Source of the DNA: Nitrospirota bacterium
GTDB taxonomy: Bacteria; Nitrospirota; Thermodesulfovibrionia; Thermodesulfovibrionales; UBA6898
Assembly: GCA_003252075.1 (NCBI GenBank)
Contig: QKDO01000122.1
Location: forward strand, 1-34,040
Direction of reading: 5' to 3'
DNA: 34,040 bases
Made by a program: the position numbers and the translations under genes. Positions 15,534-27,753 of this stretch are shown piece by piece (positions within the stretch are counted from its first letter, which is position 1; each line of letters opens with the position of its first letter). The notes under the pieces are model-generated. The model had not been told where the DNA came from. It saw nothing but the letters and a program-made list of their open reading frames with translations, and ran no database searches.

Positions 15534-16307
15534 TTACTTTACGATGACTTCAAAGTGAACGCGTCTGTTCGCTTTTGCTTCTGTGGAGTTCTTGTTCTTG
15601 GGTGTAGGCGTCTCCGGCATTGCAAGCCTGGTCTCGCCATAGCTGATCGTAGAGAGTCTGTCTGCGTCAATACCCTCTTTTACCAGATACTCCTTAACAG
15701 CATTCGCCCTTCTTTCACCCAACGCCATGTTATAGTCTTCCTTGCCGTGCGCACAGGTGTGCCCCTCGATCTGCACCTTGATCCCCGGGTTCTCCTTGAT
15801 GGTCATGACATCCCGTGCGAGCATCTCCTGTGCTTCTTTGGTCAGCGTCGCCTTGTCGAAGTCGAAATGCACGTCTTCGAGCACGATCTTCTTCGCCTCC
15901 GGAGCAGGCGGCGGTGGCGGTGGCGGTGGCGGCGGCGGTGGCGGCGGCGGCGGTGGCGGCGGTGGCGGCGGCGGTGGCGGCGGCGGTGGTGGCGGACAGA
16001 GTGCCTTCGTCATCTTTGTCGCTTCCAGGGCCTTCTCTATAGCGTCTTTATCCCTGCAGGCCCAGTACAGACGGTACGCCTCTTCTTTCGTCTCATTGGC
16101 TGCATTAAATTCAGCAGGACATTCTTTGTCCTTGCCGGCCTTCCGGGCATCCTCCACTGCGCGGTCTGCCTCAGGCAGCTCAGCTGGGTAATACCAAATG
16201 ATACTTGGCTCCTTCGGGGCATACACCTTGCCGGCGCAGCCGATCAGGGAGCTCAGTGATACGAGCACCAGCAAAATCAGCACAGCTATTCCCATTCTTC
16301 TTTGCAT
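15534..16307 (-). CDS. OmpA-family lipoprotein with polyproline linker
   Basis: The start ATG 16307 follows GGGGGAAG and gives a 257-residue protein. It opens with a lipoprotein signal (MQRRMGIAVLILLVLVSLSS then LIGCAG). A helical region of about 100 residues contains the Cys pair KDKECPAEF and YWACRDKD. A run of about 29 consecutive prolines follows, then the OmpA C-terminal domain: DVHFDFDKATL, VQIEGHTCAHG and NMALGERRANAVKEYLVKEGI. The last is the peptidoglycan-binding helix with its conserved Asn and Arg. It should tether the outer membrane to the cell wall like Pal, with the proline run acting as a stiff spacer. A frame open to 16451 adds residues before the lipobox and is less likely. 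Confidence 0.93.
   Translation of the reverse strand: MQRRMGIAVLILLVLVSLSSLIGCAGKVYAPKEPSIIWYYPAELPEADRAVEDARKAGKDKECPAEFNAANETKEEAYRLYWACRDKDAIEKALEATKMTKALCPPPPPPPPPPPPPPPPPPPPPPPPPPPPPPAPEAKKIVLEDVHFDFDKATLTKEAQEMLARDVMTIKENPGIKVQIEGHTCAHGKEDYNMALGERRANAVKEYLVKEGIDADRLSTISYGETRLAMPETPTPKNKNSTEAKANRRVHFEVIVK
15906..15992 (-). repeat. Polyproline codon microsatellite (about 29 CCN codons)
   Basis: An uninterrupted 87-bp run of CCG/CCA/CCT/CCC codons inside the OmpA-like gene. The other strand shows it as GGC/GGT triplets. Mixed synonymous codons interrupt perfect repetition but leave many short tandem units. Confidence 0.95.
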
Positions 16308-16619
16308 ACAGCTTCCCCCTTTATTTGATATTATGTATAAAAAAAAACTCTCGAGCAGTCTCACTCCCTTGTCTGCAGGGTACCGCCCTACTATCGAAAA
16401 GTCTAGCAGATTATACTTTATTGTCAATAGTTTTTCAAAGAAAAAGTGCATGCAGCAATATATCTCCTCTTAATTTTCAGAGGCCGTTGAATATGATGGA
16501 GTCTTGTGCGTGATGGGGGCAAATACCCGAAGAAAGGTGGGATAATGAACGGGGTGGCCTGTTTCCGCGCGAAACCTGTGAGATAGCTCATGGCATTGCA
16601 CGGTGAGGCGTTCAGCCGT

Positions 16620-26970: not shown

Positions 26971-27753
26971 ATGCGGAAGTCATGGATATACATGATACTG
27001 GTATTTCTCGTGCTTTCATTCCCGGGAAAAGCTTCGCCCTTTGCAAAGAGCGATCAGGATTGCTCGACCTGTCATACCCTCAATGCCGAGCAGGCAAGAA
27101 CCATTCTGAATGACCTCATCCCCAATGTAAAGGTGATCCTTGTTCAGCCGGCACCGATCACCGGTCTCTGGGAGATCGGCATTGACATGGGTGGGAGAAA
27201 GGCCATCGTATATCTTGACTATGCCAAGAAGAATATCATATCCCCTGCAACCCGCGGCGAAGTGATAAGCATCAAGACAAGAACGAGCCTTACCCAGGAA
27301 AGCTTTCAGAAAATCAACAAGGTAGACCCGTCTCAGGTGGAGCTGAAAAATGCCCTCCTCTTCGGGGACAAGACCGCCAAACATAAGGTCATTGTCTTCG
27401 ACGACCCTGATTGACCATACTGCGCAAAACTTCATCAGTCGATGAAGAAGGTGATCACAGAGAGAAGGGACATAGCCTTTTATATCATACTCTATCCCTT
27501 GCCCATGCATAAGGATGCCTACGATAAGGCAAAGACCATCCTCTGTGAGAAGTCTCTTGATCTTCTCGACGCGGCATTTGAGAAGAAACCTCTCCCCAAG
27601 CCGAGCTGCGACACCAAGGCAGTGGATGAGAACATCAAACTGGCAGAAAAGTTAGGCATCTCCGGAACACCGGCCGTCATCTTCCCGGACGGGACCCTCA
27701 TCCCCGGCGCGGTGGAAGCCGACGCCATAATCCAGCAGATAGACAAGAAGTAA
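26971..27753 (+). CDS. DsbC-like periplasmic selenoprotein (UPYC) with an N-terminal CxxCH
   Basis: Reading TGA 27412-27414 as selenocysteine gives one 260-residue protein. A signal helix (IYMILVFLVLSFPG) is followed by DQDCSTCHTL (Cys31, Cys34, His35), a CxxCH that could bind heme c. A DsbC-like dimerisation domain comes next (VKVILVQPAPITGLWEIGID, KNALLFGD), then the thioredoxin fold: VIVFDDPD, U148, PYC151, AKLH. DsbC relatives have CPYC in exactly this place. The cis-proline is in GISGTPAVIFPDG, and two further cysteines (ILCEKS, KPSCDTK) fit a DsbC disulfide. TATACT lies just upstream of ATG, so the mRNA may be nearly leaderless; an in-frame ATG at 26938 is possible. Confidence 0.85.
27430..27447 (+). 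promoter_or_regulatory. Candidate bacterial SECIS hairpin of the DsbC-like selenoprotein
   Basis: Fifteen nt after the TGA, CTTCATC (27430-27436) and GATGAAG (27441-27447) form a perfect 7-bp stem with loop AGTC. The loop starts 22 nt after the TGA and has G at position two. Both agree with the bacterial SECIS consensus (G in the first two loop bases, 16-37 nt from UGA). Confidence 0.7.

Follow-up and report, generated by a model that had tools for sequence, protein, structure and literature searches.

The gene at positions 26971-27753 of the window, that is, of the whole 34,040-nucleotide stretch of Nitrospirota DNA analysed here, very probably encodes a DsbC-like enzyme with selenocysteine (Sec) in its active site. 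This prediction from sequence is very strong because the codon in question is only ever TGA or Cys among homologues, a hairpin downstream of it tracks the Sec or Cys state, dN/dS beyond it is low, selA, selB and selD are present in the genome and selC is present in genomes of the same genus. The only in-frame TGA in the translation of the gene is codon 148, in the context FDDPD-U-PYC (Table 1), so that a preliminary description of this DNA was right to place a TGA at the first active-site cysteine of a DsbC-type protein. It had also counted 113 codons downstream; the frame does continue, but with 112 sense codons, the figure of 113 including the stop. The cis-proline and the extra disulfide cysteines that it reported are borne out by alignment, in which C192 and C213 correspond to the second disulfide of DsbC and P234 (in GTP) to the Thr-cis-Pro loop of DsbC.

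Table 1. Features of the predicted selenoprotein gene (positions are those of the window)
Feature	Position	Strand	Basis or remark
Predicted Sec-containing DsbC-like gene, full	26971..27753	+	260 aa with U148, stop TAA; 130 homologues align end to end
Putative secretion signal, MRKSWIYMILVFLVLSFPGKASPFA	26971..27045	+	Basic start and hydrophobic stretch, from sequence
CxxCH motif C31 S T C34 H35 (DQDCSTCH), candidate c-type heme site	27061..27075	+	In 112/130 homologues
DsbC_N dimerisation-type domain, residues 39-109	27085..27297	+	PF10411, 28.7 bits, cut-off 25
Thioredoxin-fold catalytic domain, residues 134-255	27370..27735	+	PF13098 (Thioredoxin_2), 77.3 bits, cut-off 27
UGA codon of predicted U148, UPYC active site	27412..27414	+	TGA in 73/130, Cys in 57/130 homologues at aligned codon
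C151 codon	27421-27423	+	Second Cys-position residue of UPYC
Predicted bSECIS hairpin, 7-bp stem, loop AGUC at 27437-27440	27430..27447	+	Perfect in 73/73 TGA genes

For the Pfam matches to PF13098 and PF10411 codon 148 was translated as Cys, and PF10411 (DsbC_N) was matched by all 28 of the aligned family members. The nearest solved relatives of the 260-residue protein are DsbC chains. Its AlphaFold2 model has a pLDDT of 89, with residues 18-26, in the putative signal region, at low confidence; DsbC is the best Foldseek match, and the catalytic domains of DsbC and ScsC match the fold of the model with Z of about 18. The protein shares with E. coli DsbC (1eej) and DsbG (1v57) the two-domain fold, the second disulfide, the Thr-cis-Pro and a dimerisation-type N domain, while it differs from both in that Sec replaces the first Cys and that it has an additional N-terminal CxxCH. 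The active site of DsbG is CPYC, from which UPYC differs only by Sec. Identity with DsbC is 23%, and because the score against the NCBIfam DsbC equivalog is 66 bits, below the cut-off of 215, we regard the protein as a DsbC-like relative rather than as an ortholog of the enterobacterial DsbC.

The homologue set comprised 130 distinct proteins from 121 genomes, namely the window's own and 120 relatives from the same order. At the position that aligns with U148, 73 of the 130 have TGA and 57 have TGC or TGT, and no other codon occurs. Alignment with Cys-containing homologues was the check that the preliminary description had proposed, with a sense codon other than Cys at residue 148 as the result that would speak against Sec, and none was found among the homologues. 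The best 80 records of a further search, nearly all from Nitrospirota MAGs and many of them overlapping with the set of 130, are likewise without exception at this codon, as are 30 more distant loci; the best match among the 80 is to UBA6898, with 95% identity. The relatives found in viral, phage and plasmid collections were all distant and of the ordinary DsbC kind. The family tree shows 18 changes between Sec and Cys, at least 10 of them on well-supported branches, and Sec and Cys paralogues occur together in single genomes.

The perfect 7-bp hairpin with loop AGTC noted in the preliminary description was confirmed. It reads CTTCATC-AGTC-GATGAAG and starts 15 nt past the TGA, so that its loop starts 22 nt past the UGA; folding of 27412-27460 gives -10.2 kcal/mol. 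The hairpin pattern has this sole match in the window, with 0 expected by chance, and its stem length, loop, spacing and folding energy meet the published bSECIS constraints (PMC13188914). An Rfam scan of the window returned two tRNA-Leu only and no SECIS family. The CTTCATC/GATGAAG stem with an NGNN loop is complete in 73/73 TGA genes as against 2/57 Cys genes (Fisher p 8e-35), and the hairpin follows the Sec/Cys state in, on average, 9.6 of 10 tree-independent pairs (p 0.002). With this pattern across the homologues, a chance arrangement can be dismissed. Comparison with synonymous shuffles points the same way: the region is more stable than the shuffles in Sec genes (mean z -1.49) but not in Cys genes (-0.05; p 4e-11). 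The segment encoded by the hairpin, LHQEMK, is similar in the Sec and Cys groups, whereas its codons are fixed only together with TGA: CTT encodes the Leu in 73/73 of the Sec genes but in 12/57 of the Cys genes, and AAG encodes the lysine of codon +11 in 73/73 and 29/57, respectively. Covariation in the stem is slight, a single pair changing from T-A to C-G in three genes, because the stem sequence is nearly invariant.

Two loci combine a Cys codon with a complete 7-bp SECIS hairpin (L016, G080:C32; L025, G036:C39). Both seem to have changed from Sec to Cys recently and to retain a fossil SECIS; remnant SECIS elements in Cys genes have been described before (PMC1794560).

In the window's genome selA and selB adjoin each other on contig C9. 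The selD gene is also present (L138, G000:C5:2696-3616), with an in-frame TGA in the motif CAGU (SCAGUAAKF) and a strong hairpin after it, and is itself a predicted, independent Sec gene of the same genome. A tRNA-Sec reaches the Rfam cut-off in 110 of the 121 genomes, same-genus genomes among them. In the window's genome, a MAG of 146 contigs that is 96% complete, an intact selC had no match at the Rfam level, and we infer from this contig number and completeness that its absence is an assembly gap. The preliminary description had named the absence of selB and selC as evidence that would count against a selenoprotein; selB is there, along with selA and selD, and an intact selC, though not found in this incomplete assembly, is seen in same-genus genomes. 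Contig C71 of the window's genome carries a 65-bp 3' piece of tRNA-Sec (L235, G000:C71:29653-29717), which looks like an attachment-site copy left by an element integrating at selC. In the same-genus genome G005 an intact tRNA-Sec adjoins a tyrosine integrase (L140, G005:C9). The fragment and this integrase suggest that mobile elements integrate at selC in these genomes as well.

The second feature of interest is the N-terminal CxxCH, which the preliminary description called a c-type heme motif, proposing that its conservation and the presence of cytochrome c maturation genes be checked. Both checks had a positive outcome: the motif is conserved in 112 of 130 homologues, in Sec members (60/73) as well as Cys members (52/57), and three cytochrome c assembly proteins (PF01578) are encoded in the window's genome. 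It is dispensable in 18 of 130 members, and where the motif is lost it disappears as a block. On the strength of its conservation and of the assembly proteins a c-type heme is plausible, and we lean towards covalent attachment of heme c at this site; the motif named in the preliminary description stands, and the heme itself is put no higher than plausible.

The competing explanation that retains most weight accepts Sec but takes the CxxCH to be a second redox disulfide or a metal site in the N-terminal arm, which would exchange with the UPYC centre or stabilise the dimer; we judge it the less likely of the two, though a serious candidate. No His or Met column that could provide the sixth heme ligand is specific to the CxxCH-bearing rows of the homologue alignment, which counts in its favour. 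A third Cys lies shortly upstream in 58 of the 112 CxxCH rows, for example in CEEDCxKCH (L118, L063, L040 and others), and Cys forms have it more often than Sec forms do (p 0.02, without correction for the tree). The motif also precedes the folded DsbC_N domain, outside any cytochrome fold, and Pfam cytochrome models matched only 2 of 28 members, with insignificant E-values. However, the His after the CxxC is kept in 112 of the 113 members with a CxxC even though both x positions of the motif are variable, and a plain disulfide needs no His; a secreted CxxCH is, moreover, a natural substrate of the cytochrome c assembly proteins that this genome encodes. In the open-licence papers that we searched, no DsbC with a heme was described.

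The CxxCH is also found in Cys-type homologues of another family of the phylum (f25), was not found in the ordinary DsbC relatives of a further family (f29) and occurs with both codon types. This suggests that it probably predates the Sec codon or is independent of it. The presence of Sec and that of CxxCH are uncorrelated (Fisher p 0.2), and independent pairs are without signal. In three same-genus species a Sec copy without CxxCH stands in tandem with a Cys copy that has CxxxCxxCH (L120 in G002, L121 in G003, L122 in G004); a division of labour between these tandem copies, or a heterodimer, is possible. The preliminary description had gone further and proposed that selenium and heme link disulfide chemistry to electron transfer. 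This proposal gained no support, given that Sec and CxxCH are uncorrelated on the tree and that Sec copies lack CxxCH in the three same-genus species. A periplasmic isomerase in which Sec is combined with a covalently bound heme c, and in which the heme exchanges electrons with the Sec-Cys centre, seems to us improbable. If it were true, disulfide exchange would be fed by the cytochrome network, or would sense it, rather than depending on DsbD/CcdA only.

Two other explanations concern the UGA itself. One is conditional decoding, in which low selenium would lead to a stop at UGA-148 and to a secreted protein of 147 residues, consisting of the CxxCH and DsbC_N, with a role of its own. The part 5' of the UGA is indeed a complete secreted domain with a conserved CxxCH. 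Purifying selection is, however, stronger downstream than upstream of the UGA: 3' of the TGA, dN/dS is 0.02-0.04 against three same-genus genes, below the upstream value, and 0.07 against a fourth. In addition, the Cys homologues are continuous through codon 148, and termination at a Sec UGA when selenium is low is a general phenomenon that requires no special function, so we regard a dedicated short product as very unlikely. That the TGA is an ordinary stop, in a pseudogene or between two genes, is hardly credible and was rejected, since despite a 103-aa ORF from ATG 27442 on its 3' side, 73 homologues have TGA at this exact codon together with a perfect hairpin, downstream purifying selection is strong and the Cys homologues are unbroken. 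Reassignment of TGA in the genetic code was also rejected, TGA being the normal stop in 11 of the 26 genes of the window.

The mechanism that we propose for the Sec enzyme draws on analogy with DsbC and DsbG. SelB, acting at the 7-bp hairpin 3' of UGA-148, would have this codon read as selenocysteine. The product would be a secreted, probably homodimeric DsbC/DsbG-like disulfide isomerase or reductase; we infer both its secretion and the direction of its reaction. Sec148 would act as the nucleophile on substrate disulfides and Cys151 as the resolving thiol, with the Thr-cis-Pro loop beside them. A membrane partner of the DsbD/CcdA type would presumably re-reduce the enzyme, and two DsbD_TM proteins are encoded in the window's genome. 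Oxidising power would be supplied elsewhere, presumably by the VKOR-like protein that is also encoded. In most members the N-terminal CxxCH probably carries covalent heme c, as an older and separable addition.

Selenoproteins with a UxxC motif in PF13098, and DsbG-like ones, have been catalogued since 2005-2006 and again in a 2026 review (PMC1794560, PMC13188914). The UxxC family named 'Thiol:disulfide interchange protein', for example WP_011366075.1, belongs here, and members have been predicted in selenium-using anaerobes, in Geobacter and Syntrophus (PMC1794560, PMC13188914). The present gene has the same catalytic domain, the UxxC and a predicted thiol oxidoreductase function in common with that family, WP_011366075.1 having been compared by its description; unlike the catalogue entries, it belongs to a family of Nitrospirota (MAGs of the Thermodesulfovibrionales type) with repeated Sec/Cys switching. 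The combination of Sec and heme in one protein, which the preliminary description considered uncommon, has a precedent: the multiheme cytochrome ExtKL and the octaheme tetrathionate reductase family are predicted to contain both (PMC13188914). As in the present gene, selenium and heme c motifs are predicted in a single protein, but those are multiheme cytochromes whereas here a single CxxCH is placed on a disulfide isomerase. In our literature search we did not find a description of a full-length DsbC with Sec and an N-terminal CxxCH, or of such dense Sec/Cys switching in this order.

With about 18 Sec/Cys switches within one order and a hairpin that changes in step, this family offers an unusually clean natural experiment on how selenium is used. 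It also raises the question of why a heme-type motif has been retained before the dimerisation domain in most members of a family of disulfide isomerases. Should a heme be bound there, a single protein would connect the Dsb system of these bacteria with their cytochrome network.

Across the order the gene neighbourhood gave no conserved partner or clue to a substrate. Release factor 1-like proteins lie near the gene in nine loci, apparently incidentally. Elsewhere in the window, the ORF translation of 15534-16451 suggests a possible OmpA-like lipoprotein whose linker contains about 30 prolines in a row.
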